Source: a virus
Length of the DNA stretch: 64,000 nt
Direction: 5' to 3' (one strand)
IMG/VR virus record: IMGVR_UViG_3300008954_002687
Location: 1 to 64,000 of that record
A model generated the notes under the pieces. The model worked only from the letters and a program-made list of their open reading frames with translations. It had not been told where the DNA came from and did no database searches. Position numbers and translations under genes: made by a program. Positions 26,736 to 51,134 of the stretch are shown here, in pieces (position 1 is the stretch's first letter; every line of letters begins with the position of its first letter).

Positions 26736-26743
26736 GAAAAACA

Positions 26744-29132: not shown

Positions 29133-29135
29133 GGT

Positions 29136-29429: not shown

Positions 29430-29430
29430 A

Positions 29431-33157: not shown

Positions 33158-33205
33158 AACACAACTTATGTATGTTAAAATTAATAAATATTTCAAGGAG
33201 ACAAT

Positions 33206-34465
33206 ATGAAACACACATTTATAATTGCTGAGGCGGGCATCAACCATAATGGTTCGCTCGACCTTGCGAAGAAGCTAATTGACACAGCGGTGATTGCCGG
33301 CGCCGATGCAGTTAAATTTCAAAAACGGGATATTCATGAGGTGTATGATCCTGACACCTTATCCAAGACCCGTGAGAGCCCATGGGGTACAACGTACCTC
33401 CAGCAAAAAGAGGGAATTGAGTTTTCTGAGGAAGACTTTGATTATATTAATGATTATTGTCGCAAGAACGGCATCGAATGGTTTGTGTCGTGTTGGGATC
33501 TCAATAGTCAAAAGTTTATGAGACGATACGATCTTAAATATAACAAGGTCGCGTCGCCGATGCTTACTGTGACACAGCTGTTAGAAGAGATCGCCAGCGA
33601 AGGCAAACACACATTTATCTCTACTGGGATGAGCACACTTGAAGAGATTGATGCCGCAGTGGAGATTTTCAAGAAGCACGATTGCCCCTTTGAGTTAATG
33701 CATTGCGTGTCGGCTTATCCTCTCGATAATAGCACCGCTAATTTGAATATGATCCACACGCTGCGCCGGCGCTATGCAAAGAACGTTGGCTATAGCGGTC
33801 ACGAGAAAGGACTGCAGATCTCGTTAGCTGCTGTTGCAATGGGCGCCACTTCTGTTGAGCGCCACATCACTCTGGACCGGTCCATGTATGGGTCCGACCA
33901 AGCCGCATCTATTGAGCCTGATGGTCTCATAAGGCTCGTCAGAGACATTAGAATTATTGATGCAGCCATGGGTACCGGCGAAAAAATTCTAAACGATTTC
34001 GAGCAAGTACACCGCGATAAACTGGCTACTCCGTATTGGGTTACCAAGATTGGGTTACCAAGTAAGATGGGAGATGAGTCTAAGGACATCGTCTGTGGCG
34101 CTTGCAATAGACACGAACTTCCTATGAAGCACGTCGACAAAGGCTGGGGTTGGGAACGCTGGATTGTGAACAATGAAGAGTATTGCGGAAAGCTGCTATT
34201 CTTCAATGCCGGCAAGCGGTGTTCTTGGCACTACCACAAGCTCAAAGACGAAGTGTTTTATTTGCAGACAGGAAAGATGATGATTTATTATTCTAAGGAA
34301 GATGATCTTGGTAACGCCAAACAATTAATCTTAAATGCCGGCGACAACTTTCATGTGTATCGTGGACTTAGACACCAAATGGTGGCTCTTGAAGACTCGG
34401 AATTGTTTGAGTTTTCCACAACACATTATGATACAGATAGCTATAGAATCGTTAAGGGGGACTAA
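33206..34465 (+). CDS. neuB: NeuB-type nonulosonate synthase fused to a cupin domain
   Basis: 419 aa. Residues 1-~275 match NeuB/SpsE: IIAEAGINHNGSLDLAKKLID, AVKFQKRD, KVASPM, TFISTGMST, VSAYPL and GYSGHEKG, the barrel that condenses phosphoenolpyruvate with an N-acyl sugar. Instead of the usual C-terminal antifreeze-like (SAF) domain, residues ~305-415 are a cupin (GWGWERWIV, CSWHYHKLKDEVFYL, LRHQMVAL). It is preceded by AAGGAG in a 48-nt gap and overlaps the PhyH gene by one base. It would make the nonulosonic acid that NeuA activates. Confidence 0.9.
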   Translation: MKHTFIIAEAGINHNGSLDLAKKLIDTAVIAGADAVKFQKRDIHEVYDPDTLSKTRESPWGTTYLQQKEGIEFSEEDFDYINDYCRKNGIEWFVSCWDLNSQKFMRRYDLKYNKVASPMLTVTQLLEEIASEGKHTFISTGMSTLEEIDAAVEIFKKHDCPFELMHCVSAYPLDNSTANLNMIHTLRRRYAKNVGYSGHEKGLQISLAAVAMGATSVERHITLDRSMYGSDQAASIEPDGLIRLVRDIRIIDAAMGTGEKILNDFEQVHRDKLATPYWVTKIGLPSKMGDESKDIVCGACNRHELPMKHVDKGWGWERWIVNNEEYCGKLLFFNAGKRCSWHYHKLKDEVFYLQTGKMMIYYSKEDDLGNAKQLILNAGDNFHVYRGLRHQMVALEDSELFEFSTTHYDTDSYRIVKGD

Positions 34466-35223
34466 TGGAGTTTCAGATCACTAAAGAAGAGTTTGTTGGT
34501 AATTTTGAAAACGCTTGTGAACTTTATGAGCAGCATGGCGTCCTCAAGGTACTCGGCTATTTTGATGCCGAGAGCGTTAACAGTGTGCGCGTTGAGCTAT
34601 CTGCAGTATATGATAAAATCCCAGACTTCACAAACGTCGAATTCGGTTATGGCGGTATCCGGAAGCACAATGTCCACGAAACCGGCAAATCGATGCGGAT
34701 TATAAACCCTAAATACTATAAAACATTTCCTCGAATGGTTTCTTTGATTGCAGCCGATCAGCACCTAGACAGGTTTCTTAATCATTTCTATCCGCCGCCC
34801 AACAGAAAGCTCATGCAAATTTTCACCACTCACGAGTCACACGCTGTCGACGCCGACGAAGTGCCCCGCAACTCATGGCTACACTTCGATCCCTACCCTG
34901 CTCTCAAATACGCCGTGATGTTACAGGAGACCGATGAGGATAATGGAGCATTATTTGTTATACCAGGCTCACACCCAGAGGGGAAAGAGGTTCGAGAGAC
35001 GTTGTTAGAGCACAAAAGCAGTTTTAAGAAAGGCTTTTCTCATAGATTTATTGATTACGAAGATATATACGAATCAAAATACTCAGAAGATGACAAAATT
35101 TATATTAACGCATCGGTCGGAGACTTGCTGATCTTAAACACCGACGCATGGCACGGTGGTGGCGTTCTCAAGTCGCAAACTCGCGATAGGATGGCGATTT
35201 ATTACCACAACAGACAACAATGA
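34465..35223 (+). CDS. Phytanoyl-CoA dioxygenase-like (PhyH) oxygenase
   Basis: 252 aa. WLHFDPYPALKYAVMLQ gives the HxD iron ligands, DNGALFVIPGSHPEG is the PhyH signature and GDLLILNTDAWHGGG plus an Arg later supply the distal His and 2-oxoglutarate contact. This is an Fe(II)/2-oxoglutarate hydroxylase; relatives modify lipids, secondary metabolites and sugars. Flanked by NeuB and the sialyltransferase, it might hydroxylate the nonulosonic acid or its acyl group (inference). Overlaps both neighbours. Confidence 0.85.
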   Translation: MEFQITKEEFVGNFENACELYEQHGVLKVLGYFDAESVNSVRVELSAVYDKIPDFTNVEFGYGGIRKHNVHETGKSMRIINPKYYKTFPRMVSLIAADQHLDRFLNHFYPPPNRKLMQIFTTHESHAVDADEVPRNSWLHFDPYPALKYAVMLQETDEDNGALFVIPGSHPEGKEVRETLLEHKSSFKKGFSHRFIDYEDIYESKYSEDDKIYINASVGDLLILNTDAWHGGGVLKSQTRDRMAIYYHNRQQ

Positions 35224-35894
35224 AACTATTGAATAAGATAAAAGAAACTCCATTTGTAATGGAAGAGCAACAGTTCACACCCGGCAACGGGTGTTCTGTC
35301 GTTGGGAGTTCTGGCAATTTATTAGATAATGAATATGGTACAGCTATTGACGCTAGCGACGATGTGATTAGATTTAATGGCGCCAAAACCACATCGTTTG
35401 AGAAACATTGTGGTTCGCGCACAACTTTCCGCCTCATGAACTGCCACAGTATCCTTAATATTGAGAATAGTGCCTACTTTGCGCAGCAAAAAGAGAGACA
35501 TCCGCAGCTTGATAGGGAGCTTTTGTACAAAATAGAGGGCGAAATCATCGTTTTTAAGACCGATCCTACATGGGAATTGTGGCGAAAAACCCACATTTTA
35601 GACAAAGTAAGACAAAAAAATGAGGTTTATTTCATTCATGAAGACTTTTATAAGCTAGGAAACAAGCTAAATGGGGGCAAAGAGGCTACAAACGGCTTTA
35701 TAGGGCTACTGATGGCGCTCCGCTTTTACACTCAGATTGATTGTTACGGGTTTTCGTTTTACGATCCGCACGTAAAGAAGCACTATTTCGACGAAATTAA
35801 CAATTATAACATGACAGCGGGTCATGATTTCGATAACGAAAAGAAAATCTTTTCACTTTTCGAAAAGAGTGGTATAATAAACATACATGTATAA
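35220..35894 (+). CDS. GT29-family sialyltransferase
   Basis: 224 aa, containing all four sialylmotifs known mainly from animal enzymes: motif L from residue 25 (CSVVGSSGNLLDNEYG, then AIDASDDVIRFNGA and GSRTTFR), motif S at 154-180 (KEATNGFIGLLMALRF, DCYGFSF), motif III HYFD at 189-192 (numbering approximate) and motif VS as H-x4-E in GHDFDNE. No membrane anchor is present, so it acts in the cytosol. The donor would be the CMP-sugar from NeuA. Its size is that of the bare catalytic domain. Confidence 0.88.
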   Translation: MKLLNKIKETPFVMEEQQFTPGNGCSVVGSSGNLLDNEYGTAIDASDDVIRFNGAKTTSFEKHCGSRTTFRLMNCHSILNIENSAYFAQQKERHPQLDRELLYKIEGEIIVFKTDPTWELWRKTHILDKVRQKNEVYFIHEDFYKLGNKLNGGKEATNGFIGLLMALRFYTQIDCYGFSFYDPHVKKHYFDEINNYNMTAGHDFDNEKKIFSLFEKSGIINIHV

Positions 35895-35903
35895 GGTAAT
35901 ATC

Positions 35904-36737
35904 ATGAAATTAGGACTAATAGGACGAGGATTCGTTGGAAACGCAATCTACGAAAACATGAAAGATGTGTATCCAATCGCCGTATATGACAAAAACGATG
36001 ACTTAGCGACTTGCGGCAGTGTACGAGATGTCTGTCACAACTCTGATATTATTTATGTGGCGCTCCCAACCCCCATGAAAAGTACTGGTCAGTGCGATTT
36101 GTCGATTATTTATAATGTAGTGGCGCAAATTTCTTATTGGTATAACGATAATATCGTCATAATCAAGTCCACAATACCTCCCGGCACCTGCGAAAACCTC
36201 ACAAAAGCCAACCCGGAGCTAAAGATTGTATTCAGTCCTGAATTTTTAACCGAAAGGAACTCTGTTGAAGACTTTAAGACATGTAATCGGGTTATTTTTG
36301 GTGGAGAGACAGAGCACACCGACGCTTGTGTCGAAATGATGCAAAAGGCATTTCCCGATAAGCAGTATGAACAGACGGATTGGAAGACTGCCGAAATGGT
36401 TAAATACTTTATAAATACTTTTCTCGCATGCAAGGTGTCTTTTGCTAACGAGATAAAACAAATTTGCGACATAATTGACACAGATTACAATAAAGTTAGG
36501 GATTTAGCCCTCTTAGATCAAAGAATTGGAAATAGTCACTTAAAAGTTCCGGGACCTGATGGTATACTAGGTTTCGGTGGTACGTGCTTTCCTAAAGATT
36601 TAAACTGTTTAATATACTTTGCAAAGAAAAACGGTATCACCCCAAGCGTATTAGAAAGCGCGTGGAACAAGAATTTACAAATTAGAGAAGAAAAGGACTG
36701 GCTCTCCATGTTCGGAAGAGCTATTTCAGAAAAATAA
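35904..36737 (+). CDS. UDP-glucose/GDP-mannose dehydrogenase family protein, short form
   Basis: 277 aa. KLGLIGRGFVGNAIYENM is the NAD Rossmann motif, VALPTPM and STIPPGT the family loops, FSPEFLTERNSVED the substrate segment, and GFGGTCFPKD contains the catalytic Cys and Lys. Family members are usually near 390-450 aa; the C-terminal UDP-binding domain is missing here. It probably oxidises a nucleotide sugar C6 to a uronate, unless truncation impairs it. Last gene of the glycan locus. Confidence 0.85.
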   Translation: MKLGLIGRGFVGNAIYENMKDVYPIAVYDKNDDLATCGSVRDVCHNSDIIYVALPTPMKSTGQCDLSIIYNVVAQISYWYNDNIVIIKSTIPPGTCENLTKANPELKIVFSPEFLTERNSVEDFKTCNRVIFGGETEHTDACVEMMQKAFPDKQYEQTDWKTAEMVKYFINTFLACKVSFANEIKQICDIIDTDYNKVRDLALLDQRIGNSHLKVPGPDGILGFGGTCFPKDLNCLIYFAKKNGITPSVLESAWNKNLQIREEKDWLSMFGRAISEK

Positions 36738-37244: not shown

Positions 37245-37590
37245 AATAATTTTATCAGCGTCCCTATTCGTGTCAATTGTTCTAAACATTGGCTTGATGG
37301 TGTACGCCAGAGCAGCGATTGTCAGACTTCTTTCTGTATCAGAAGAGTTGGGAGATCTCTCAGAGATGATCAACTCCTTTACTCGTCACTTAGACGACAT
37401 TTACAGCTTAGAGATGTTTTATGGCGACGATGTTATACAGTCCCTCTTGGAACACGCAACCTCTTTCAATGAGCAAATGGAAACCTTTGAGTACATTTAC
37501 ACACTAACAGAAGCTGACAGACCTGAGTCTGAAGACGCTGACGCTGATGAAGAGGAATTAGATGACGACACCAACCCCGAAACCCCGTAG
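37231..37590 (+). CDS. Membrane-anchored acidic protein (119 aa)
   Basis: One N-terminal transmembrane helix (IILSASLFVSIVLNIGLMVYARAAIV), an amphipathic helical middle (SEELGDLSEMINSFTRHLDD) and a highly acidic tail (SEDADADEEELDDDTNPE). GGAGACC precedes ATG 37231. Overlaps the sigma-factor gene by 29 nt, so expression is probably coupled to it. Unknown function. Confidence 0.65.
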   Translation: MSRLEIILSASLFVSIVLNIGLMVYARAAIVRLLSVSEELGDLSEMINSFTRHLDDIYSLEMFYGDDVIQSLLEHATSFNEQMETFEYIYTLTEADRPESEDADADEEELDDDTNPETP

Positions 37591-38281
37591 GCGCCGGAAA
37601 AAGAGAGGAAGTAACAAAAACCACTACTTCACTCAAGAGCATGAAGACGCAATAATAAGATATGCTCAAACTAAATGTTCACGAGAGCGAACAGAACTAT
37701 ACATCAAATGGATCCAGCCTGCCTTTGATCAGATGGTAGACAAGATTGTCTTTACTTATAAGTTTACCAATTTGCCCAATTGCGATTCTCTAAGAGATGA
37801 ATGCAAAATTTGGCTGATGACGATTTTAGACAAATATGATCAAAGCAAGGGCTCGAAAGCTTTTTCATATTTTAGTGTTATTACAAAAAATTGGTTTATC
37901 CACAAGGTTAAGCGCCAACAAAAGCGCAATAAGCGCGAAGTAGATTATGACAACATCTCTAAAGCTTATGAAGAAGAATATTTATCTACCAGTGAATCAT
38001 ATGTAACCATGCGCGAGGAGAATGAATTCTGGACATCATTCTACACGGAGCTTAAATCGTGGGATGTTGCGCAAATGAAAGAAAACGACCTTAAAGTTTA
38101 TCAGGCCATTTTAATTCTCTTTGAGTCAAAAGAAGACATCGAAATTTTCAACAAAAAAGCTATTTATTTATACCTGCGAGAGATCACAGGGCTAAACACT
38201 AAACAAATTGTAAACTCGCTAAAGAAATTTCGAAAGAAATATGAATACTTTAGAGGAGATTGGGAATCAGGAACATTATGA
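37562..38281 (+). CDS. Late-transcription sigma factor (T4 gp55-like)
   Basis: 239 aa. A basic N-terminus (PKPRRRRKKRGSNK) is followed by FTQEHEDAIIRYAQTKC, IQPAFDQMVDKIVFTYKF and the region 2-like block LRDECKIWLMTILDKYDQSKGSKAFSYFSVITKNWFIHKVKRQ (split here for length: the hallmark is SKAFSYFSVITKNWF), as in gp55 late sigma factors of T4-like phages. Gp55 directs host RNA polymerase to TATAAATA late promoters together with the clamp and gp33. It sits directly upstream of the structural module it would activate. Confidence 0.85.
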   Translation: MTTPTPKPRRRRKKRGSNKNHYFTQEHEDAIIRYAQTKCSRERTELYIKWIQPAFDQMVDKIVFTYKFTNLPNCDSLRDECKIWLMTILDKYDQSKGSKAFSYFSVITKNWFIHKVKRQQKRNKREVDYDNISKAYEEEYLSTSESYVTMREENEFWTSFYTELKSWDVAQMKENDLKVYQAILILFESKEDIEIFNKKAIYLYLREITGLNTKQIVNSLKKFRKKYEYFRGDWESGTL

Positions 38282-38583
38282 GCAACAAGGACTTAGATTT
38301 ATTGATTGACGAAGCATTAACAAACATTCGCAATGATCGCAAAGTAGCGAGAGAATTTTTGAACGAGATCGCAACTCAAATTTCAATTGATGCCGAGAAG
38401 AACAGATATCTTAGTCCCGTCGCTGCTCAACACGTCCAGTCACTCCAGCGCTCCAACGAACAACTTGTAAAATTAATAGGTCTTAGACAGAAAGGTTCTG
38501 CCACTTCTCCTATCTTGACTGACGAAGACAAGAACAGTCTGTTTGATTTAATTCAAGGGGACGCCTCGCCAAATGTCGACTAA
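38278..38583 (+). CDS. Small helical protein, possible late co-activator
   Basis: 101 aa from ATG 38278 (ATGA overlap with gp55); the longer frame to 38260 is only the sigma gene's tail. Mostly helical (LDLLIDEALTNIRNDRKVAREFL). Near the C-terminus SLFDLIQG could be a clamp-binding hydrophobic motif, like those of T4 gp33 and gp55. Gene order next to gp55 makes a gp33-like role conceivable, but sequence support is weak. Overlaps the spike gene by 11 nt. Confidence 0.6.
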   Translation: MSNKDLDLLIDEALTNIRNDRKVAREFLNEIATQISIDAEKNRYLSPVAAQHVQSLQRSNEQLVKLIGLRQKGSATSPILTDEDKNSLFDLIQGDASPNVD

Positions 38584-40069
38584 GGTTCCTCGTGCATGGG
38601 AAAGGTCTGAATTTTCGACCCCCCACGAGGCTAGCCAAGTGGATAATGAGCTTCTGCGCCAAGCAGATCGATATGATATCTATGGCGAGAGAGAAGTGTT
38701 TATTGTCCGCGTGCTCACGCGACCTGTTCCCCTAAGTGCTGATGATTTTAAAGCAGTAATGGGCGCTAGCGGCGACGACGCCGTACTTCTGGAGGGTTCC
38801 TCCGCCGCTAAAATTGTTTTTGTGGGGCGAATTGAGCCCGACGACGCCCCATCACCACACGCGACGATTCCGGATCCATGCAGCAGTGCGGTAGGAACAA
38901 ACCCCGGCTGTGCAGCAAAAATAGTATCTTGGCATACTAAGTTTTTTTCAAGATCAGATTACGAAGGAAAGGTACCTGAGATCGGCGACCTTGTAAAGGT
39001 TAAAATTTCCCCGGGCACTTTTAAGTATAACCTACAATATGCGTATTTTGACACACTGGAGGCGGCAGGTGACGCTGTACCGCCCGCCGCTAACTGCTCT
39101 CACCTCGACGCCTTGTTCAAGGGGTTCGATCACAAAAACTTGGGCACGATTATTCCTCCGGAGGATCTTAACCCAGAAACCGGTAAAAGCGATGATAAAT
39201 GCAAAGCTGAAACCCCAATTAGTCAAATAGATTGGAGTTCAATTCGCTCAAAAGCCATGAAGACCTGTAAGAGCACCACAAAGGGATGCTCGATGTGCGC
39301 CTGCAAGATCCCAGATAGCGTAGGTAGTAACTGGAGAAGTCCACAACCTACGCTCGGGAACTTACTGTGGATGAAGAAAACCAATAAAATCAAGCGCATT
39401 TTAAAATATAACGGTAATGACGAGATTGGTTACGATCCACACACAAAAACCATATCAGGCACCAAGGGAGTTTGTGTGGGCGGCGACGTCGAGAAAGAAT
39501 ATGCAAAAAGATTAGGTATGGAATATCAGCGCACCAGCGCGCATAAAGGCGGGCAGATGGGGTACGGCTACAAGAAGTCTGTAGATCATGCAAATAAAGT
39601 GCTTAAACAAGGAAACACATTGGTTCATTGTACACACGGAGCCGACCGTACTGGTATGATAGTTGGCGCGTGGATAAAGTCCAAAGAAGGCGGAAAGAAG
39701 ATAACTGGCTGTTATGCCCTTTGGAAGTATGCAACATCTTTCAACAGTTGGAAAGGCTATATTTGCAGAAGCGCAAATCTAGGTTTCGCCGCATATTTCG
39801 ATGCACTGTGTCCTATGACGACATTTTGTAATGGAGATATGTATGAGAAGTGCGCCGCATGCAAAAAGGCAGGCGTGAAACACGGTACTTTCGGCGGTCC
39901 ACTAATACCCGCAGGCTGGAAACCATCGGGAGTTAACCCGAAAGACCCGCCAAACAAATGCAAAAAATACCCGGGAACTACGTATTTTAAAGGAACTGCG
40001 AAGTATCAAGAGGGTTGTTGGTCTGGAAGTGATTCTGAGGGCTGGAAGAAGGTAGGAAACGCGGAGTAA
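38573..40069 (+). CDS. Baseplate spike-type protein with tyrosine-phosphatase-like domain
   Basis: 498 aa. Residues ~35-190 are paralogous to the next gene: FIVRVLTRPVPLSADDFKAVM, KIVSWHTKFFSRSDYEGKVP and IGDLVKVKISPGTFKYNLQ, an OB-fold spike module like T4 gp5. After a Cys-rich linker comes a CX5R phosphatase loop, VHCTHGADRTG (Cys353, Arg359), preceded by SVDHANKVLKQGNTL and followed by helices, as in protein-tyrosine and dual-specificity phosphatases. The C-terminal ~80 residues are Cys/Gly/Lys-rich. The lysozyme position of the paralogue is thus occupied by a phosphatase-type domain. A virion-borne enzyme acting on phosphorylated envelope polymers or lipids is one possible role. Confidence 0.78.
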   Translation: MSTKVPRAWERSEFSTPHEASQVDNELLRQADRYDIYGEREVFIVRVLTRPVPLSADDFKAVMGASGDDAVLLEGSSAAKIVFVGRIEPDDAPSPHATIPDPCSSAVGTNPGCAAKIVSWHTKFFSRSDYEGKVPEIGDLVKVKISPGTFKYNLQYAYFDTLEAAGDAVPPAANCSHLDALFKGFDHKNLGTIIPPEDLNPETGKSDDKCKAETPISQIDWSSIRSKAMKTCKSTTKGCSMCACKIPDSVGSNWRSPQPTLGNLLWMKKTNKIKRILKYNGNDEIGYDPHTKTISGTKGVCVGGDVEKEYAKRLGMEYQRTSAHKGGQMGYGYKKSVDHANKVLKQGNTLVHCTHGADRTGMIVGAWIKSKEGGKKITGCYALWKYATSFNSWKGYICRSANLGFAAYFDALCPMTTFCNGDMYEKCAACKKAGVKHGTFGGPLIPAGWKPSGVNPKDPPNKCKKYPGTTYFKGTAKYQEGCWSGSDSEGWKKVGNAE

Positions 40070-40071
40070 TT

Positions 40072-41325
40072 ATGAGCAAAAGAAAACATGACAAATCGAA
40101 TGTGTCCACTCCGGCTGGCGCCAGTCAGTTTAAGGCGCATGCCACGCGCCAAACTCTAGCATATGATGCTTATGGCGCCCGCACGACGTTCATCGTGAGG
40201 GTTCTAACTCGCCCTATTCCAATGAGTGCAGACGATTTTAAAACAGTAATGGCTGCTTCGGATGCCGATTCTGCAATATGGGAAGTCGACGCCACCGCAG
40301 CAACCCGAATTGTCTTTATGGGAAGAATATTGCAGGACGAGATGGATGCCCCATCACCCCATTCAACCCTTCCAGATCCATGTCAGGATTGGACCATTAA
40401 AACAAAAGGCGGCGTACAGCCGGGCTGCGCAGCAAAAATAGTATCGTGGCACACCCGCTTTTTCTCAAGATCAGATTATAACGGGAAGGTCCCGGGAATA
40501 GGAGATAAAGTAAGGGTGACTTTATCCACCGGAGATTTCAAATATAATTTGCAAAATGCATATTTTGAAACCCTAGAGTCGGTTGAACTGGCTGACTCCG
40601 ACGAAAGTTGCCAATCAAGCTTAGAGGCTTTGTTCAAAGGGTTTGATCATACACAATTAGGAGAGGTGTATGATATTTCATCCGAAGTCGCCAAAAGGAG
40701 CAAGAAAAAGGGAGACTGCCACAAGCCCGGACCGCCGTACACGTCAGCGGTCGCCGCCAGCCCAACAGCCAATCACAGTACCGCTGCCCATGTTAGTTTT
40801 TTCAAGAAAATGCGCGCCGCCCTTCCTACGAGCAAATTTAGTGATGAATTTATATACGGTATGATGGGAAATGTTGCACACGAGAGCAACTTCAAGCCCA
40901 CGATATCTGGGGATCCAGAGTGCAAAGAGCCCGCCCGTATGATGAAAGGATGGGGCTATTCCGGCGGCAAGAAGGGTGAACGCACAACCCTCTACGCAGC
41001 CCATGGCTTCTTCCAAATGAATACATGCCGCGCCGGCGCGATGGGCAGACAGATGTTAGCCTACCACGGCATCACTACAATGCCGGAACAAGCATCGGAC
41101 AAAGCGTATAAAATACTTACTAGCGGTGACAATCAAATAAAGTTCATGGCGTGGCGCCTGCAGAAGTATGGAGGCTCTTTCACCGACACCGGCACCGCTG
41201 CCATCGCCAAATATACGGATTGGTTCTTGCTAAAAGTTGAAAACCCCGGCTGCCCCGCGGGCTCTCGTAAGTCACGCACTGATCACGCATTAGGATATGC
41301 AGCCAGCATTCCTCCAAAGTTGTGA
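40072..41325 (+). CDS. Baseplate spike lysozyme (gp5-like)
   Basis: 417 aa. The N-terminal ~190 residues are an OB-fold module shared with the preceding gene (FIVRVLTRPIPMSADDFKTV). Residues ~245-415 form a phage tail lysozyme domain: GMMGNVAHESNFKPTISGD with catalytic Glu271, AAHGFFQMNTCRAG and a helical C-terminus. It would locally cut peptidoglycan as the spike crosses the envelope. Starts two bases after its paralogue and has similar codon use, fitting tandem duplication followed by domain replacement. Confidence 0.85.
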   Translation: MSKRKHDKSNVSTPAGASQFKAHATRQTLAYDAYGARTTFIVRVLTRPIPMSADDFKTVMAASDADSAIWEVDATAATRIVFMGRILQDEMDAPSPHSTLPDPCQDWTIKTKGGVQPGCAAKIVSWHTRFFSRSDYNGKVPGIGDKVRVTLSTGDFKYNLQNAYFETLESVELADSDESCQSSLEALFKGFDHTQLGEVYDISSEVAKRSKKKGDCHKPGPPYTSAVAASPTANHSTAAHVSFFKKMRAALPTSKFSDEFIYGMMGNVAHESNFKPTISGDPECKEPARMMKGWGYSGGKKGERTTLYAAHGFFQMNTCRAGAMGRQMLAYHGITTMPEQASDKAYKILTSGDNQIKFMAWRLQKYGGSFTDTGTAAIAKYTDWFLLKVENPGCPAGSRKSRTDHALGYAASIPPKL

Positions 41326-41378: not shown

Positions 41379-42413
41379 ATGTCAAGTAAAAAACCCATTT
41401 ATGATCCGAAGCTATTAGCCGGACAACGAAAAGAGGCTGCAGCGCGCACGCTTGAAAATCTGCTAAACATGGCAGATCAAAAAACTGTGAGTGCTTTAAC
41501 GGGAGATGCAAAAGCTTCTTTCATCCCGCAAGGCGCAGGCATTAGCCACACACCTGTTCTTAAGCCTACGATTAACTTTAATGCAGCACCAGATGAAATG
41601 CAAGTTGGTCCCGGCGGCAATACGGCAATTGTTTTTGGACGAGACAGACCCGCCTCTGAAGCCAGTGGCTGGGGCGCAAAAGGTTCCAATACTTGCGACA
41701 CCATCGACATTGTAGCAGGTCGAAGCTCGGCTGCACGCGGTGGAAAGGGTCCCACCCCGGGCTCCGTCGTTGAGCCGAATCTCACAAACGACGCCGCCCG
41801 CATATATATTAGTCAACTTACGGACGTTGACCTTAACTTTGGCATCGCCGGCGGGAAACAAGGTCTTATGAAAGAGCGCTCCGCAATCGCCATGAAAGCT
41901 GATGGGATTCGTGTCATCGGCAAAGAGGGCGTGAAGATTGTGACCGGTCGCTCATTTGCCTTTAAAGCTGGACCCAGCGGAGAGAAAAACACGCTTGGCG
42001 GCACTAATAAAAAGCCGGCACCCAAGATTGAACTCCTCGCAGGAAACCATGATGGAGAACAAGTCATAAAAGCCACCAAGTGGCTTCCCAAACAAAATAT
42101 TAAAAATTTGCAAGGAGTAGCCCGCGGCGAAAATACCAGAGACGCCCTCCGAGGTTTGGGTGAAATTGTTGAACAACTTATAGGCACTGTGAATCAAATG
42201 GCAGACATCCAACTTAAGACCAACAGTTTATTTGGGGCGAATATATGGCACTCCCACTACCAACCAGCAGCACTAGATGCTGGGTTGAAATATCTTCTGT
42301 TTGTTCAGAGTTCTCTATGGCACACGCGCATTAACAAAATCATTTGGGAACTTAATTATACGTATCCTTTTGGATACAAGTACGTCCTGAGTAGAAACGT
42401 ATATTCCACATAA
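41379..42413 (+). CDS. Probable spike/needle or baseplate structural protein
   Basis: 344 aa. Residues ~75-230 are beta-repeat rich (TAIVFGRDRPASEASGWGAK, IYISQLTDVDLNFGIAGG, AIAMKADGIRVIGKEGVKIV), like the triple beta-helix needle following gp5 lysozyme in T4-like spikes. The C-terminal ~100 residues are helical and aromatic (LKYLLFVQSSLWHTRINKIIW) and may anchor it in the baseplate. Located between the spike lysozyme and wedge genes; the 53-nt gap upstream carries GAGGTAG before the ATG. Confidence 0.65.
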   Translation: MSSKKPIYDPKLLAGQRKEAAARTLENLLNMADQKTVSALTGDAKASFIPQGAGISHTPVLKPTINFNAAPDEMQVGPGGNTAIVFGRDRPASEASGWGAKGSNTCDTIDIVAGRSSAARGGKGPTPGSVVEPNLTNDAARIYISQLTDVDLNFGIAGGKQGLMKERSAIAMKADGIRVIGKEGVKIVTGRSFAFKAGPSGEKNTLGGTNKKPAPKIELLAGNHDGEQVIKATKWLPKQNIKNLQGVARGENTRDALRGLGEIVEQLIGTVNQMADIQLKTNSLFGANIWHSHYQPAALDAGLKYLLFVQSSLWHTRINKIIWELNYTYPFGYKYVLSRNVYST

Positions 42414-42425
42414 AAAGAAAACAAA

Positions 42426-45400
42426 ATGGCAAAATCTGAATTTTTAAAATGGCAGGATAGGAACAACAATCTCATTCATGACGCTTGTCCCGAAGACGAC
42501 GAGTTCAAGGAGGTAAAAAATTGTCCCGACTGTAAACCAAACCCTAACGCTGTTCTTCCAAACTGGAAGAAAAGAAAGCGCGATGAGCCGTGGTTTAACG
42601 ATAAATACTGCACGTTTCAAGTAACAGTTCCTACGCATTACGCTTCTCTTATAAGCGATTCTGCGACGGACGCTGATTATGTAAAGTCGATGTTTCAAGA
42701 ATATGAGTTATCGGCGATCAAGTCACTACTAAACAACTTTAACAAGAAGAATGACGAATACACTCAAGAACTCTTGTCTGAGGTAATTCAATATACAAAA
42801 TATGACCTCGCGCCAAACGCGGCATCGCGTGTAAAACTGTTGTATACGATCCCTTACGAGCATTTTGCTCCACTGGAGGACTCGATAAATGATGATGAGG
42901 ACGAAGAAGAAGAAGCCGGTCCTAGGACGGTCACCTATGTTGCACATGAAATTGCACCCAAGCTAAATGTTTTCCGGCGCGCCATGCACCTATACGGTCG
43001 CTACTATAGAGTTTTTAGTGCCGTCGAATCGGGCACCTTTGTGTTTGATCAGGCTCCACTCACAGGAAAAGTTTTTACGACCGGTCACTTTGATAGCTAT
43101 GGAGATGGATTGGGGGATCGCGGCAGTACTATGTGGGGCTTACTCAATTCTTTGGATGAATGGTTGAATCAAAAAGACTATAATATTTTTGGCGTTGGTG
43201 ATATTTCGTTTTTTAAGACCCGGGTAGACAAATTAGAATTTACATTTAGTGAAGAATATAAGCTTGTAAAATTGCGCGCATACGCACAGGGTTGCCCCGA
43301 AGCGCCCATTACATGGAAGATGGACCCTGAAGACATGGATGGACCACTGGCGACACTCTCAAACAATGAGCACTGGAAAGATCCCACAGCCTGTGCATAC
43401 TTCTCACGTCTCGAAGAACTGGAAGCATCGATCACATCCCGCGTAGAAACGCCGTGGACCGAGATTATTGAGAAATATACGTATCCAAAGGTAATTGCCA
43501 AGTTTAACTATCCTCGCGAAGAGGTAGACGATCCCTCTCTTACAACCGCCAGTTGTGTGGTCGAGGCTCTAGACAACGAATTTAAACAGCTTGGTCAAGA
43601 CATTTTAGATGATGTGTTTAGTATTGGAGATGCTTTAGCCTATGCCTTCAATAAAAACATGTGCAAAAAGGATCTAAACGAAGCCCTCGACGCAAAAAAT
43701 CACCTCGGCATATTATATGATCCGACAAAGCCGCAAGACAAAAAAAATAAAAAAAGCATGTGGGCGATGGCACAAGAGCAAGCCTACAAAAAGCTCAATA
43801 AAGACGATCAAGTTTTTGCGAGATTCTGCCAATCAATGGGTACCGCCAAAGTTTCCTCATCTAGCTTTTTTGTCAAAATGTTTGGAAGTTCAGATTCTAA
43901 AGTGTTAGACGAATTTTATTCGATGTCCGAAGGCGGGCTCGATATAGTCATGTCGTGCGGCTTGTTTGACATGATGTTGGATGCAATCAAATGTTTGTTT
44001 AAGGGCTTGACTCTGGAACAAGCATTAGCTAGTGTAGCAAAGGCAGCGCTGGAATCAATGAACATAACCAACTTTGGAGATTTGTTCGTTGGTTTACCTC
44101 CTGACAAACAAGCCAAACTGCACGAAATGGTGAAGAAGAAGCTTGAATCAGGTGACTTCTTTAAAGCAGGCTCCGGCGGTGAAGACGCGAGTAAGCGCAT
44201 TGAGAACAAAGACAGCACCACTGCCCCAGAGAACACCCCTTTCTTTGGAGAAGTAAAGTTTATAGTACCATGGAAAGACAAAGAAGCCATTGATGCTGAG
44301 AAAAAAGCACAAGAGCGCCCCGCTTCATCATCCCGTCGAACACTGGCGCAACAATATCAGCAAGCTGACGACGCCCGCGGCGCCCAAACAAACGTTGTTA
44401 TGCAGGCATATGTAGCTGCGTTGTTGGATGAGTATATGGATGACCTACTTGGTCTCGTGGATATGCTAAATAAATACCCCGGCGCTCAAATGATCGCCAA
44501 CATCATTGCCTTGATTGATTGCCCGGGTCCACCGATGCTTGAGCCAAGCGTTATGGATTTCATCAAAAGCATCGAGTTGCCATTCTGCCGCGATATTAAT
44601 GGAATCGTCGTTCCGGGATTTAACAACCCCTTTGGTTGGATCCCAGACTGGGCAGACCTGAAGAAGAAAATATTTGAAATTTTCAAAATGGTTATTCAAC
44701 AAATTGTAATGAGCATAATGATCAAAATCATTGTCAAGCTATGTCAAATGTTAGGAGATGCGATCTGTAAAGCCTTAGAAGTCGTAGGCGACGTAGCAAC
44801 CGCGTTGCCCGGCATGATGACCGGCAGAACACAACTCGCGGACGTTATCCGCGACGCACTCTGCGGAGAAGATGCATCCCAGCAGCAAGTTGAAGACACC
44901 GTAGCAGACATGTTTGCCAAATTGGGTGTCGGCGGCGCAGCGTTGGCTGACAAAAATGCAGTTATGAATTTCGCCGGTGACCTATCGTCGGCGGTCACCA
45001 CGCAAGAACTGAATGATGCCCTCACAGGGAATGCCTCGGACGAGTTCTTGGAAGTCGCCGACGGACTGGTCGAATATGAATACCCTCAGTTTCGTAATGG
45101 TCTGCGCAACAAAAGAGCTTTTGCGGACTTTTTCGGTGCCATGGGCAACTTAATGCCGGCAAGCGTCAAAGCCGCCATGGAAGATATGCTAGAAGCAATG
45201 CCAGAGACAGGAGCATTGCCAGCAAACCCGTCATTGTGTGCTTCTGAAGAAGATTTAGATAATTTCCAAGAATTGCGCTGTACCTTATTAGAGGGTCGTG
45301 CAACCCCAACACAATGTCGGGAAATGTTCGACAACATGCAAAACGAAAAATTAGAAGACCTTGAAGACCTTGCCAATGTTTTGCAGAAGGGTATTGGAGA

Positions 45401-48400
45401 AGCTATCGCCGACCAAATGCCCCCTCTGGTATCTTCTCCCGGTTGCGATGATGGATTGATTCCGTTTGAAGCAGAGGAAACTGTTAAGGGCGCCGGCGCT
45501 CTTTTCGATGCCACCTTGAAGCAAGTAAAAGTTGATTTCTCACAAGATATGCTTGGAAATGGAGGGCTGTTTGCCGGCGACGATGACTGGGGATTCATTA
45601 ATATGATTTTGTCAGATACGAACGGTATGCCCTTAACTGCTCATCATCGCTTAACATATAGAGACCGCGACCGCGTCGACTTTGTTGTGGCTCAGGGTGC
45701 CGAGGACAACGGAGACTGGTGGGCTTCCCTCTTCCCAGACCCACCGGCGAAGAAAAAACAAGAAGGTCAGTACCCCGGCTTGGTCGCCGGCTGGCTCCGC
45801 AAATCGATGAGCGAGATGAATACGAACTTTGATTCCAACAACGACTGGCAGGATGCCGAAGTATTCTACAGGAGCTTCGAAGACTTAGGATTCGATGGTA
45901 TGTGGGGAAGCCGCCCGGATATTAACCTCATCTCAATGCCTGATTATGGATACAATGTAAAGTTCGGAGTTCAATATCAAAACGAACAGCTTAAAATAAC
46001 ACGCGCTGGCAGAAAAGATCATACCGACATCCAACTACAGTTTAGAGATAATAACATGGGCGCCGCATCTGCCGAGAAAAACCAAACGTATTTCTCGTAC
46101 GGGTTTAATGTAAACATGTACTTGTCAGATCTAGAGGAAACCAATGGCGTCATCCACAATATAGAATCTGACAACGTAAGAATGAGTATCGTAAGTGTAA
46201 CAAACCCGCTGTCCGCTCCGATCAACAAACATGGAAAGACCGAGGAGGAGATTGAAGAGGAAGAAGAAGCCCGCGCCCAAATTCTCGTGGATCTGATCAC
46301 CGAGGGAGGGACCATAGAAGACATTCTCATTAAAGATCGAGTATATGAATTTGTCTCGCACGAATCAACTCTCCAAGACCTAGATCTGTCAGAGTATCCA
46401 AAGTTTGCGTCAGCATTCAGTACGAAACAAAGGTATATACCCCAAGTGCTCCTTTTGCAAGAGATGTGCTCGGACAATCCGGCTGATCAACCGGATATTG
46501 CAGACGTGAAAACGTTTTACGATTCGTTTATTACAGAGATAGTAGCCAAATTAACTGGAGATGTGGTGGGCAACCTTCCCTCTTGGAGTTATGGCGCCAA
46601 ATATGACGATTTGACCGTAGAGGATACCGAATATGTTCTTAAGAGAGGGCAAGCATACCTCAAAGATGGGAGCGCGGCTGTGGGTGGCACTCCCTATGGC
46701 GACGGGTATCTTCCAAACGCTGATGGAAAACTGAAAAAGATCACAAGCGACGATAGCATCTTAGGATACAGCAGGATGGAGCACAAGGAGCTTCGTGGCA
46801 CTAGCACCCGCGAGAACCGTGTCTTTTACCTAGATCCAGCCACCTACGGCGGCTCATACGCCAATCCTCCCTTTTATATTAAACCGCTAAAGAGCGACGG
46901 CTGGCTCGGAATGGTGGAAGTATTGTTCCCGGAGTTAAGTCCGTGTAAGCCACAGCTAACCGATCTCATAGACTTCGCCGATATCGAGGAGGAAATAACC
47001 AAAGCATACTCCTTAATGCCAGAAGACGAAAGAATCAAGAACGACCCTGATTGTGTGATGGAGCTTCCTTACAATAGAATTTTGATGCGCCCGAACCGGG
47101 CAGGCATCGAGGGAATTATTTTAGCCACCTGCCGGATATTTGCCAGCACTCACTTGCTTAAGAGTTTAGCAACGACCACGACGTTTTACCCAACCTTCCC
47201 TAGCACGTTTGGTTCGATTTATGCAGCATATGTAGTAGAGTCTATGGAAGCGTCACTTAGAGATGCCCAGAGTGCCGGCTGGGAATTCTGGAACTCCTTT
47301 AAGGACGACGAATTTTGGTATGCGTTTCTAGAGCAATCCGTGCAGATGTATAGCCGCAGAATCGATGCGGATCCTCCAACGATTGAGGACCCACCTGCGC
47401 ATGTTATCGATGCATTGAACCGAATCAATGACATGAAAGAGCGTTACACTTATCCATGGTCAGATGATTTGGACGCTGCTCGCGATGCCGGAGAAGCCCA
47501 AGCATGGCCATGGGACACTCTCGATAGTTGGAGAACCGAAAAGAATTTTGAAGCAATCCAAGCCACGGAAGAGGATGCCAAAATTGTATTGAAAGAACTC
47601 GTGATGACTGAGTTGAATGTAATGGGCAAAAAGTTTGTTGATAATTTGAAAGCTGTCGGAATGGTGCCAAAGTATAAAGATATGGACTATTACTTTATGC
47701 AACGTTTCTGCACCGGGGGTGAGGGACTTGATATAGATAAGGAAATCATTCCAGAAATCCAAAAACTCCCGACACCAGAGAATCCGGATCCAAACGAAGA
47801 CGGCTCCAAGTTCCCCGGTCCATATTATACCGATGGCGGAGAACTCTCCACGCAACCCGAGGGACATGACTATGTTGGATACTATCATGTATCCGAAGAT
47901 GAAATGGGCAATGTAATCTACATGCAGGGCGAAGCCCACTCGGACACTCCTCACGGAGAATTGACAGTATACGCGGACAATATTATCATACCGATTGGGG
48001 ACGTTGCCGATTATCGCGCCTCGGGAACCACAACCGCCGGCGCCCCCTTTAAGCTTGAAAAGTTCATTGAGATCAATGGTGAAAGGTACATGGTAGAAAC
48101 CGCCTACAATAAAATTACTTCCAACGATCCTGAAGCCAATTTGCACGATATCTATCCCGGCACACTTAAGACAGTTACTTCAACGGTAACTGATCCCACC
48201 ACTAACGAGAAATATGAAAAAGTAGTAGGAATAGAGGGGCACATGGGAGTGCGATATGGACTACAACTTGGATTAGTGATCGAAGGCAAAACATATGGCA
48301 TGACAACAGTTAAAATGGACGCTTTGGATCTTCCTGTCAAATCGTTTAAAAAGTTCACTGGCGACAGCAATATCCTCTATTGCTTAATAAAAATGCTCAA

Positions 48401-48929
48401 AGAGGATCCTGCGTTCTTAGCACTGTCGCGATACGTAATCAGCACTAGTAAATTTACGTCGCTTCTCGCGATTTATAACGATATGGGTCTGCTGCCCTCT
48501 ATCGGAGAATTAACCACCGCGAAGGGCGCGAATAAAGAAGACTCCGGCAAACCCGGCATGATGTTTAACGCTGTGCCAAACGCCATGACAGGAGAGCCCG
48601 CCGGGCTTTCTTATAATGAAGGTTGGGAATTCGGAAATGACCGAAAACCTTCAAATTGGACATGGGGGATCCGAGAGTGGGACGATTGGGATAAGGTTTT
48701 GTTAAGAAAATCTAAATCCCGCATTAAGAAAGTTTTTAAAGCATTTTATAATATTAGAGATTTCAACTCTGAAGGAGATGGCGAGGGTCTTGATTTTACT
48801 AGAGTTTGGATCAATAATCTCAAAACCGCTATGTTACCGCCCGCCGGCATGAACCTTTTCAGTGGATGGGCTAAATGGCGCCGCCGGACTAATCCTTTCA
48901 ATGCCGACGGTAAATTATGCAAAAAGTGA
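42426..48929 (+). CDS. Giant baseplate/tail structural protein (2167 aa)
   Basis: The N-terminus has a CPDCKPNP and further Cys (possible zinc knuckle or disulfides), then an alternation of acidic helical and beta regions. A hydrophobic amphipathic helix stretch at ~755-785 (IFEIFKMVIQQIVMSIMIKI) could contact membrane or hub. There is no long heptad array of the kind expected for a tape measure. Location between the spike and gp25/gp6 wedge genes argues for a baseplate hub or wedge component. No enzymatic motif recognised. GC-rich codon pairs (GCC GGC) are frequent. Confidence 0.7.
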   Translation: MAKSEFLKWQDRNNNLIHDACPEDDEFKEVKNCPDCKPNPNAVLPNWKKRKRDEPWFNDKYCTFQVTVPTHYASLISDSATDADYVKSMFQEYELSAIKSLLNNFNKKNDEYTQELLSEVIQYTKYDLAPNAASRVKLLYTIPYEHFAPLEDSINDDEDEEEEAGPRTVTYVAHEIAPKLNVFRRAMHLYGRYYRVFSAVESGTFVFDQAPLTGKVFTTGHFDSYGDGLGDRGSTMWGLLNSLDEWLNQKDYNIFGVGDISFFKTRVDKLEFTFSEEYKLVKLRAYAQGCPEAPITWKMDPEDMDGPLATLSNNEHWKDPTACAYFSRLEELEASITSRVETPWTEIIEKYTYPKVIAKFNYPREEVDDPSLTTASCVVEALDNEFKQLGQDILDDVFSIGDALAYAFNKNMCKKDLNEALDAKNHLGILYDPTKPQDKKNKKSMWAMAQEQAYKKLNKDDQVFARFCQSMGTAKVSSSSFFVKMFGSSDSKVLDEFYSMSEGGLDIVMSCGLFDMMLDAIKCLFKGLTLEQALASVAKAALESMNITNFGDLFVGLPPDKQAKLHEMVKKKLESGDFFKAGSGGEDASKRIENKDSTTAPENTPFFGEVKFIVPWKDKEAIDAEKKAQERPASSSRRTLAQQYQQADDARGAQTNVVMQAYVAALLDEYMDDLLGLVDMLNKYPGAQMIANIIALIDCPGPPMLEPSVMDFIKSIELPFCRDINGIVVPGFNNPFGWIPDWADLKKKIFEIFKMVIQQIVMSIMIKIIVKLCQMLGDAICKALEVVGDVATALPGMMTGRTQLADVIRDALCGEDASQQQVEDTVADMFAKLGVGGAALADKNAVMNFAGDLSSAVTTQELNDALTGNASDEFLEVADGLVEYEYPQFRNGLRNKRAFADFFGAMGNLMPASVKAAMEDMLEAMPETGALPANPSLCASEEDLDNFQELRCTLLEGRATPTQCREMFDNMQNEKLEDLEDLANVLQKGIGEAIADQMPPLVSSPGCDDGLIPFEAEETVKGAGALFDATLKQVKVDFSQDMLGNGGLFAGDDDWGFINMILSDTNGMPLTAHHRLTYRDRDRVDFVVAQGAEDNGDWWASLFPDPPAKKKQEGQYPGLVAGWLRKSMSEMNTNFDSNNDWQDAEVFYRSFEDLGFDGMWGSRPDINLISMPDYGYNVKFGVQYQNEQLKITRAGRKDHTDIQLQFRDNNMGAASAEKNQTYFSYGFNVNMYLSDLEETNGVIHNIESDNVRMSIVSVTNPLSAPINKHGKTEEEIEEEEEARAQILVDLITEGGTIEDILIKDRVYEFVSHESTLQDLDLSEYPKFASAFSTKQRYIPQVLLLQEMCSDNPADQPDIADVKTFYDSFITEIVAKLTGDVVGNLPSWSYGAKYDDLTVEDTEYVLKRGQAYLKDGSAAVGGTPYGDGYLPNADGKLKKITSDDSILGYSRMEHKELRGTSTRENRVFYLDPATYGGSYANPPFYIKPLKSDGWLGMVEVLFPELSPCKPQLTDLIDFADIEEEITKAYSLMPEDERIKNDPDCVMELPYNRILMRPNRAGIEGIILATCRIFASTHLLKSLATTTTFYPTFPSTFGSIYAAYVVESMEASLRDAQSAGWEFWNSFKDDEFWYAFLEQSVQMYSRRIDADPPTIEDPPAHVIDALNRINDMKERYTYPWSDDLDAARDAGEAQAWPWDTLDSWRTEKNFEAIQATEEDAKIVLKELVMTELNVMGKKFVDNLKAVGMVPKYKDMDYYFMQRFCTGGEGLDIDKEIIPEIQKLPTPENPDPNEDGSKFPGPYYTDGGELSTQPEGHDYVGYYHVSEDEMGNVIYMQGEAHSDTPHGELTVYADNIIIPIGDVADYRASGTTTAGAPFKLEKFIEINGERYMVETAYNKITSNDPEANLHDIYPGTLKTVTSTVTDPTTNEKYEKVVGIEGHMGVRYGLQLGLVIEGKTYGMTTVKMDALDLPVKSFKKFTGDSNILYCLIKMLKEDPAFLALSRYVISTSKFTSLLAIYNDMGLLPSIGELTTAKGANKEDSGKPGMMFNAVPNAMTGEPAGLSYNEGWEFGNDRKPSNWTWGIREWDDWDKVLLRKSKSRIKKVFKAFYNIRDFNSEGDGEGLDFTRVWINNLKTAMLPPAGMNLFSGWAKWRRRTNPFNADGKLCKK

Positions 48930-48955: not shown

Positions 48956-49321
48956 ATGGCTTCAATAGGAGTTAGCCTGCCGCTGACAAAAGACTCAGCC
49001 GACGGGTTTACTATGCTTAAAACTCTGGCAACAACAATTAAGCAAAATTTTAAGATGTTGATACTCACAGATCCTGGAGAGCGCGTGATGACTCCAAATT
49101 ACGGAGTAGGACTTAGAACGTATTTGTTTTTAAACTATAGCGAGGATGCGCATGAAAAAATTAGGAGCAAGATCTTACAACAAACCTCTCTCTATATGCC
49201 GTCTGTTTCTATTCAGGCAATTGATTTTGGTATGGAGCCAGACTTAAATAAGCTGTCTGTTCATATTCGATATGCAATACCCAATATAGGAATAGAGGAT
49301 TTATTAGAGTTTACTATTTAA
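48956..49321 (+). CDS. Baseplate wedge protein gp25-like (GPW/gp25)
   Basis: 121 aa, the typical length. KTLATTIKQNFKMLILTDPGERVMTPNYGVGLRTYLF contains the gp25 core (LLLTxPGERxMxPxFGxGLRxxLF; shown here in two parts, with TDPGERVM and NYGVGLR as key blocks). Known gp25 proteins nucleate the wedge-sheath connection of contractile tails. It directly precedes gp6, as in T4-like and other contractile systems. Confidence 0.93.
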   Translation: MASIGVSLPLTKDSADGFTMLKTLATTIKQNFKMLILTDPGERVMTPNYGVGLRTYLFLNYSEDAHEKIRSKILQQTSLYMPSVSIQAIDFGMEPDLNKLSVHIRYAIPNIGIEDLLEFTI

Positions 49322-49337
49322 TAGTGAGGTTTTTTTG

Positions 49338-51134
49338 ATGGCTGACGAACAGAAGAAAATTTTACCGATTAACTATACTCACAGAGAGTATCAGGGCATC
49401 CGGCAAGACCTGCTGCAACTGGCAGAAAGATACTACCCAGAAAATTTTCAAGATTTTAGCGAAGCTTCATTTGGAGCCCTGATGCTTGATGCGGTTGCGT
49501 ATGTCGGTGATCAACTATCATTATATCTAGATTACAACGTAAACGAGTCGTTTCTAGACACAGCATACCAGCTTAATAATGTTGTGCGCCATGGTCGCGT
49601 TCTCGGATATAAAAATCCCGGTCGACCCTCGACCCATGGCACAGCAGCTGTATACATTCAGGTACCGGCTACCACAACTGGAATGGGACCCGACACTCGC
49701 TATATTCCCACCATGCTGCGCGGGAGTTCGTTTACGTCTGATAACGGGCTGTCCTTTGTTTTAACAGAGAATATATCGTTTTCCGAACCAGTTAACCAAG
49801 TGGTTGTATCGCAGGTGGATAGCATCTCCGGCGCCCCCACTTACTATGCCATCAAAGCTTACGGAAACGTAGTCTCCGGTCGATTCTCACAGGAACAAGT
49901 TGTGGTGGGAGCTTTTGAGAGGTTTAAGCGTATCCGAGTGGCATCCCCAGATATTTCAGAGATCATCTCAGTGTTCGATTCCGAAGGAAATCAATATTTT
50001 GAAGTAGAGTATCTTGCTCAAGATATGGTATTCAAAGAGCTTGCTAACCAGAACTACAAGAGCGACAACGTCCCATCCATTTTAAAGCCAATGCTGGTAT
50101 CTAGAAAATTCACCGTAGAACGGGACATAGCAGACACATACCTGCAGTTTGGGAGCGGCAATGAGGCAGAATCGAATGTCGTCGCCAACCCACAACAAGT
50201 GGCAATTGACGTATTTGGAAAAAGCTATGTTACGGATACCACATTCGATCCAACGAGATTGTCTAAAAACAAGAATTATGGAATTTGCCCAGCAAACACA
50301 ACTTTAACCATTACCTATCGCACTACAAATCCGACCAACTCAAATGTTGCAGTGGGGTCACTAAATAGCGTAAGCACCGTGTTATTTGACTTTGAAGATC
50401 GGAGCAGCTTAAGCGGGCTCAATGTTCAAGCGGTCATCGACTCCGCGGAAGTCTCTAACGAGACGCCCATAGTCGGCAGCGTCGCCGAACCGTCAACATC
50501 GGAAATCAAGCGAAGAATCTTTGATACGTTTCCGACTCAAAATCGAGCAGTCACTCAAAGCGATTATGAAAATTTAGCCTACCGCATGCCGGGGAAGTAC
50601 GGTTCTCTCAAGAGAGTTTGCATTCAGAAAGACCAAGATTCCCTTAAAAGAAATTTAAATATGTATGTTATTTCGGAGGATAGCTTTGGAATGCTTACAA
50701 AAACTAACGCAACCATAAAAAATAATTTAAAAACTTGGCTTGAACAGTATAGAATGATTAATGACACTGTGGACATTCTCGATCCACATATTATCGATAT
50801 AGGAATTGATTTCGTTATCAAAACTGCACCCGGCGCAAACCGCACCGATACGTTAAACGCCGGTATCTTAGCCTTGACAGCAAAATACGAAGAGTCGTTC
50901 TTCATTGCCGAGTCTATGTCAATTAGCAGTATTTATAGTACACTCAGCCAAGTTGAGGGTGTCTTAGACGTTGTTACGGTAAAACTACACAATAAACTCG
51001 GAGGAAGTTATTCTTCAGTTGCATTTAATGTTCAAAAGAACCTATCGCCAGATGGTTCATCGCTAGTTGCACCGGCAAACGCCATATTTCAGATTAAGTA
51101 CCCTTCTGTAGATATCAGAGGAAAGGTCAGGTAG
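49338..51134 (+). CDS. Baseplate wedge protein gp6-like
   Basis: 598 aa from ATG 49338 (TTG 49335 in the same frame is less likely). The N-terminal FSEASFGALMLDAVAYVGDQLSLYLDY is the conserved gp6/gpJ helical start; YENLAYRMPGKYGSLKRVCI and LNMYVISEDSFGMLT are the later core. This protein forms the inner wedge ring of contractile baseplates. Its place right after gp25 agrees. The size is close to T4 gp6 (about 660 aa). Confidence 0.9.
   Translation: MADEQKKILPINYTHREYQGIRQDLLQLAERYYPENFQDFSEASFGALMLDAVAYVGDQLSLYLDYNVNESFLDTAYQLNNVVRHGRVLGYKNPGRPSTHGTAAVYIQVPATTTGMGPDTRYIPTMLRGSSFTSDNGLSFVLTENISFSEPVNQVVVSQVDSISGAPTYYAIKAYGNVVSGRFSQEQVVVGAFERFKRIRVASPDISEIISVFDSEGNQYFEVEYLAQDMVFKELANQNYKSDNVPSILKPMLVSRKFTVERDIADTYLQFGSGNEAESNVVANPQQVAIDVFGKSYVTDTTFDPTRLSKNKNYGICPANTTLTITYRTTNPTNSNVAVGSLNSVSTVLFDFEDRSSLSGLNVQAVIDSAEVSNETPIVGSVAEPSTSEIKRRIFDTFPTQNRAVTQSDYENLAYRMPGKYGSLKRVCIQKDQDSLKRNLNMYVISEDSFGMLTKTNATIKNNLKTWLEQYRMINDTVDILDPHIIDIGIDFVIKTAPGANRTDTLNAGILALTAKYEESFFIAESMSISSIYSTLSQVEGVLDVVTVKLHNKLGGSYSSVAFNVQKNLSPDGSSLVAPANAIFQIKYPSVDIRGKVR

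Follow-up and report, generated by a model that had tools for sequence, protein, structure and literature searches.

What would a phosphatase do at the tip of a phage tail? The question is raised by the window analysed here, the first 64 kb (positions 1–64,000) of the 101-kb uncultured virus contig IMGVR_UViG_3300008954_002687, in which two tandem genes of a baseplate cluster encode proteins with a common N-terminal module, one of them (P0002) ending in a lysozyme domain and the other (P0001) in a domain of the protein tyrosine phosphatase/dual-specificity phosphatase (PTP/DSP) type. Judging from sequence, predicted structure and gene context, we think it fairly probable that P0001 belongs to the tail-tip spike or hub as an accessory enzymatic arm, which would dephosphorylate an envelope component at entry.

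The phosphatase domain of P0001

P0001 and P0002 are 61% identical over their ~180 N-terminal residues and unrelated in their C-terminal halves, and P0002 starts 2 nt past the P0001 stop codon (Table 1). Residues 246–406 of P0002 match PF18013 (Phage_lysozyme2; 1.4e-7, score 32.2 versus a gathering threshold of 28.2) and Glu271 lies within GNVAHESNF, this paralogue having both a recognised lytic domain and the catalytic Glu. An initial annotation of the window had described this tandem pair with its shared module, the lysozyme with Glu271 on one gene and, on the other, a tyrosine-phosphatase-type domain with the CX5R loop HCTHGADRTG (Cys353, Arg359), all of which our analysis bore out. As modelled, the C-terminal domain of P0001 belongs to the Cys-phosphatase (PTP/DSP) fold. 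In the AlphaFold2 (AF2) model, obtained with a 68-row alignment (mean predicted local distance difference test score, pLDDT, of 73.6, and mostly 76–96 in the phosphatase domain), a strand (349–353) followed by a helix (357–371) carries the CX5R phosphate-binding loop (P-loop; residues 352–361), with H352, Cys353 and Arg359. When this model was compared with the PDB using Foldseek, all 50 best matches were PTP/DSP proteins, including the RNA triphosphatase RNGTT (3.9e-4), AtPFA-DSP1, Siw14, TpbA, SsoPTP and a baculovirus RNA 5'-phosphatase. A nine-sequence profile searched against PDB sequences retrieved the baculovirus RNA 5'-phosphatase (1.2e-5), the mouse and human capping enzymes (7.6e-5), Mycobacterium tuberculosis PtpB (MptpB; 2.5e-4) and TpbA (7e-4). 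Among viral models, the best match, aligned over 493 columns, was A0A1B1IUT8 (4.8e-10), followed by a marine-virus 'Peptidase M23B' (2.3e-5).

Relatives of P0001 were first found with the search pattern HCTHGAD, which would make conservation of the motif circular, and loci (designated here by L numbers) were therefore re-collected through a neighbouring gene encoding a 239-aa protein. We compared eight spike phosphatases, seven from this neighbour-gene survey and one (L013) from the motif search, with those of L048 and L077 being near-copies. HCxHGxDRTG is invariant in all eight (as HCTHGADRTG, HCTHGVDRTG, HCAHGVDRTG or HCKHGADRTG, with T/A/K and A/V at the free positions and the catalytic ones fixed), while the domains share 20–49% identity with that of P0001. 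Purifying selection on the domain was evident in close pairs, with nonsynonymous over synonymous substitution (dN/dS) values of 0.018/0.079 and 0.037/0.222. Outside the P-loop, the residues invariant in the eight-sequence alignment are Arg, Cys, Glu, Asn, two Tyr and Trp, but no Asp, and hence the WPD general acid known from classical PTPs has no conserved counterpart here. MptpB-type enzymes are also reported to have no WPD motif and, like myotubularins, likely to use the P-loop Asp as general acid (Beresford et al., 2010, PMC3091653); by analogy with this position, Asp358 probably serves as the general acid in P0001. The predicted fold, P-loop conservation and purifying selection rule out a chance CX5R motif. 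A sequencing artefact or frame error is likewise ruled out by L001, a contig from another metagenome with 99.995% identity over 22 kb, and by an intact orthologue at about 45% identity.

Copy number and cargo of the base module

Genes with the N-terminal (base) module shared by P0001 and P0002 occur across a large group of uncultured bacterial viruses, known mostly from environmental DNA, and in some members this tip gene is duplicated. Our survey of IMG/VR with the 239-aa gene yielded 431 places, the best 80 of which were kept and supplemented with eight new ones from a second scan; genes were read between the conserved 107-aa and 344-aa genes (Table 1), and the counts include some near-identical contigs. 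Base-module genes always lie between these two, and a base-module hidden Markov model matches all complete loci of the group. The match is weak in L084 (3e-5), whose highly divergent gene at the conserved place (11016–12431) marks the reach of the family. Complete loci have one copy (71 loci), two (7) or three (7), none having more, and L064, a locus that is cut off, also has three.

What the copies carry at their C-terminus is variable. Pfam domains recognised in 88 spike proteins were VanY (21), Peptidase_M23 (8), Amidase_2 (7), Y_phosphatase3 (6), Phage_lysozyme2 (4), M15_4 (3) and SLT (2), with many cargos matching no Pfam family, and in single-copy loci the recognised cargo consists nearly entirely of peptidoglycan hydrolases. 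Because the module elsewhere carries VanY, M23, Amidase_2, Phage_lysozyme2 and SLT domains, we take the cargo position to be one for envelope-directed enzymes. Two further paralogues differ from these: one in L013 (2302–4110) has a strongly hydrophobic C-terminal half with a membrane-inserting look and no recognisable enzyme, and one in L089 (10063–11160), without a Pfam match, has by eye a GWSGGA nucleophile-elbow-like stretch and is possibly an alpha/beta hydrolase.

Half of the multi-copy loci (7 of 14) include a phosphatase copy, against none of the 61 single-copy ones (Fisher p = 1.7e-6, in a test that ignores the kinship of the loci), and no phosphatase copy stands alone. Every phosphatase locus keeps at least one other copy, mostly a recognisable peptidoglycan hydrolase: the lysozyme in the window, Phage_lysozyme2 and VanY copies in L057, and in L079 an M23-like copy (judged by eye) together with an SLT-like domain. 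With wall hydrolases on the sister copies, the phosphatase thus comes on top of wall hydrolysis, and is not, as the initial annotation had it, a domain present 'instead of' lysozyme.

Copies from the same locus mostly group together in a maximum-likelihood tree of 83 base modules (the three each of L064, L098 and L079, the two each of L013, L089 and L108, and the window/L041 group), with L048, L056, L057 and L068 sharing one older triplication. Expansion has therefore happened several times, never past three in our sample. At least four changes of the phosphatase label are required on this tree, a number already forced by the branches with good support. L048, L056, L057, L068, L064, L079 and L098 each have a tandem of exactly three base-module genes that differ in their C-terminal domains. 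A three-fold symmetric hub with one copy per position would explain the ceiling of three, the independent cases being few.

A putative arm of the tail tip and its alternatives

The gp25- and gp6-like genes at 48956–51134 place the spike genes in a baseplate cluster whose gene order is kept across the group, and we assign P0001 to the tail tip because of these neighbours, of its module in common with tail-lysozyme-type proteins and of the wall hydrolases on sister modules, in agreement with the placement that the initial annotation gave to its phosphatase-like enzyme. On this basis, the phage would be contractile-tailed and the N-terminal module would seat P0001 at the tip, with a catalytically competent phosphatase in which Cys353 would act as nucleophile, Arg359 would bind phosphate and Asp358 would probably be the general acid. 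Tail contraction would drive the arm, alongside the peptidoglycan hydrolases of the sister copies, into the outer membrane and periplasm, where removal of phosphate from an envelope component would make penetration easier; the substrate would most likely be a phosphorylated lipid or glycan, for example lipid A or a lipid-linked (pyro)phosphate. The copy pattern, with one to three genes per locus, no larger number in our sample and several origins, predicts mixed spikes in a three-fold symmetric assembly. More specifically, the tip could be a heterotrimer of up to three sister modules, each with a different enzyme (such as a phosphatase, a lysozyme and a D-Ala-D-Ala carboxypeptidase), so that one spike would combine three chemistries, one of them stripping phosphates from lipid A or lipid-linked intermediates, but this arrangement we put forward as speculative and rather doubtful.

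Several observations weigh against an envelope-directed tail phosphatase. The contigs are from uncultured viruses, and the Fisher test, as said, takes no account of kinship. The Pfam matches of P0001 itself fall below the cut-off, both for DSPc (E = 2.7e-4, score 21.2 versus a gathering threshold of 33.5) and for Y_phosphatase3 (8.9e-4, 19.7 versus 22.2); relatives over gathering are L016 (Y_phosphatase3, 24.9 versus 22.2) and L021 (Tc-R-P, 36.5 versus 27). All eight spike copies have Ala or Val where the lipid-phosphatase signature HCXXGKDR has its Lys, and consequently phosphoinositide-type specificity is not predicted and the domain is not filed in the MptpB-type family. Lastly, the base module has no recognised fold, so the label 'spike/hub' rests on synteny and cargo. 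The gp5-like oligonucleotide/oligosaccharide-binding (OB) module of the initial annotation was not confirmed, given that a profile search found no match to the base module in the PDB and hhalign found none to T4 gp5 or to the spike-region genes of phages immuto and Mel-JY01; its AF2 model has about six strands.

A different target would be host signalling, with P0001 acting as a protein phosphatase on a periplasmic regulator in the manner of TpbA or, if injected, on cytoplasmic phosphoproteins. TpbA, a periplasmic phosphotyrosine phosphatase of Pseudomonas (PMC4409338), is indeed among the profile and fold matches, and the bacterial relatives of the domain are secreted-looking DSPs. Nonetheless, its recurrent fusion to peptidoglycan hydrolases or SGNH-like domains in unrelated phages suits an envelope polymer or lipid better, no translocation signal was recognised and the WPD Asp that tyrosine phosphatases typically have is missing from the conserved set, and we regard a signalling role as unlikely. 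Still less probable to us is a phosphoanhydride hydrolase that cleaves pyrophosphate or polyphosphate, for example in undecaprenyl pyrophosphate, lipid II or a nucleotide triphosphate. This would be in line with the best fold and profile matches, which are to RNA 5'-triphosphatases (RNGTT, baculovirus) and inositol-pyrophosphate phosphatases (Siw14, AtPFA-DSP1), and with the P-loop start HCTHG common to RNA 5'-phosphatases, but the sequence match is confined to about 28 residues at the P-loop, the substrate does not follow from the fold family and RNA capping would be senseless at a tail tip; a capping role read from the HCTHG match was dismissed as context-free. In tail-tip proteins, enzyme folds are often redeployed for binding, and the PTP fold could accordingly serve to grip phosphate-bearing surface polymers without cleaving them. 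This we consider very improbable, since the Cys, the Arg and the P-loop Asp are invariant in a domain that otherwise diverges, and the nucleophile would be dispensable for binding alone.

If P0001 does dephosphorylate an envelope component from the tail tip, it would be a virion-associated tail enzyme in a known placement with a new chemistry. To our knowledge, the tail-tip enzymes described so far cut wall polymers, surface polysaccharides or the acetyl groups of the latter. A tail-tip phosphatase would then be a new chemistry for envelope crossing, and a phosphorylated envelope component would be a barrier worth an enzyme.

Relatives, known systems and genomic surroundings

Searches with the spike phosphatases revealed relatives in 62 IMG/VR loci, mostly with HC[TAK]HG[ASV]DRT. 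Phage members of this PTP subfamily (L015–L024, L207–L260) share with P0001 this P-loop and an Arg-containing first strand but are without the spike N-terminal module. In them, the domain follows a muramidase-like domain (L021 and L022, below the Pfam cut-off) or PG_binding_1 (L016 and L019), is joined to SGNH-like stretches (GDS..., GTNG..., by eye) in L230, L224 and L251, on contigs of 250–321 kb, or is the only domain after a membrane or lipoprotein-type N-terminus (L015, L208 and L237, by eye). In the one neighbourhood examined, the L016 gene adjoins a helicase gene and there is no tail cluster. These non-spike members are probably lysis or membrane-anchored proteins. The bacterial relatives (L031–L036 and others) are mostly secreted- or lipoprotein-looking DSPs by eye and, together with the hydrolase fusions and the membrane or lipoprotein starts, point to the envelope. 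The HCxHGxDRTG phosphatases of phages, recurrently joined to wall hydrolases, seem to form a family not described before. The phosphatase spike and its paralogue have no counterpart in 50,697 cultured phage records, and we found nothing relevant on phage tail phosphatases in the literature, consistent with the remark in the initial annotation that such a role was not known from contractile phages. The nearest cultured phages, Flavobacterium phage immuto and Microcystis phage Mel-JY01, share only the 239-aa and gp6-like proteins, at about 30% identity.

Resemblances to known systems are partial. T4 gp5, the baseplate hub subunit and tail lysozyme, likewise has an enzyme domain on a tip gene alongside a gp25/gp6-type wedge cluster, and P0002 carries a tail lysozyme, but here one to three separate paralogues bear swapped enzymes, including a phosphatase, and sequence relation to gp5 is not detectable. 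The gp15 hub of the Anabaena myophage A-1(L) has lysozyme, endoglucanase and peptidase domains (PMC10966104), and thus combines several envelope-degrading activities at one baseplate hub, as predicted here from genes; unlike in A-1(L), where all are wall-polymer hydrolases in one polypeptide, they would be on sister polypeptides, one of them a Cys-phosphatase. With MptpB-type lipid phosphatases, P0001 shares the absence of a conserved WPD Asp, the Asp at P-loop position 6 and weak Y_phosphatase3/PtpB matches, but differs in the signature Lys (Ala or Val here) and in its fusion to a phage tail module. TpbA-type periplasmic DSPs are alike in fold, profile match and envelope location of relatives, yet are not phage structural proteins and have different P-loop residues. 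The nearest folds, those of the RNA 5'-triphosphatases RNGTT and baculovirus BVP and of Siw14 and AtPFA-DSP1, include RNA 5'-phosphatases whose P-loop also starts with HCTHG but continues with xNRTG in place of the ADRTG of P0001, and in another context.

Table 1. Features of the baseplate cluster (window coordinates)
Feature	Position	Strand	Remarks
239-aa conserved gene, survey anchor	37562..38281	+	75–89% identity across group; always two genes 5' of spike genes
107-aa conserved gene, immediately 5' of spike genes	38260..38583	+	Relatives 63–74% identical, equal position
Phosphatase-bearing spike paralogue P0001, 498 aa	38573..40069	+	
Base module of P0001, N-terminal, aa 1–200	38573..39172	+	61% identity to paralogue over aligned part
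PTP/DSP-type Cys-phosphatase domain of P0001, about aa 247–433	39311..39871	+	AF2, Foldseek, profile
P-loop HCTHGADRTG of P0001, residues 352–361	39626..39655	+	Cys353 codon 39629–39631
C-terminal tail of P0001, aa 443–498	39899..40066	+	Low confidence, pLDDT < 50
Lysozyme-bearing spike paralogue P0002, 417 aa	40072..41325	+	PF18013 Phage_lysozyme2; Glu271 codon 40882–40884
344-aa conserved gene, always directly 3' of spike genes	41379..42413	+	30–54% identity in 48 relatives
Giant 2167-aa baseplate-cluster gene	42426..48929	+	Kept at 29–56% across group, in relatives with enough flank
gp25-like baseplate wedge protein	48956..49321	+	PF04965 1.6e-11; phrog_261 1.4e-15
gp6-like baseplate wedge protein	49335..51134	+	phrog_219 5.7e-19; tblastn to contractile-tailed phage baseplate wedge proteins

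Among the flanking genes, the 239-aa gene has a weak late-sigma-factor-like match (phrog_234, E = 0.023), and the 2167-aa gene matched no Pfam or PHROG family. The position of the 344-aa gene suggests that it encodes the piercing needle. Its AF2 model (pLDDT 81) is beta-rich in the centre and helical at the C-terminus; it has no fold match in the PDB, for which the reading as a known needle fold was dropped, and no sequence relation of the gene to T4 gp5 was detectable.

Elsewhere in the window, a 342-aa protein (4639–5667), of the same virus as the phosphatase, has a borderline match to the protein-kinase family PF00069 (31.9 versus a cut-off of 31.7). A run of sugar and small-molecule genes occupies 22586–36737, 5' of the baseplate cluster, with a glycosyltransferase (22586) and a short-chain dehydrogenase (29431) recognised by Pfam and a NeuB-like gene (33206) and others by eye, and is partly replaced in L009.

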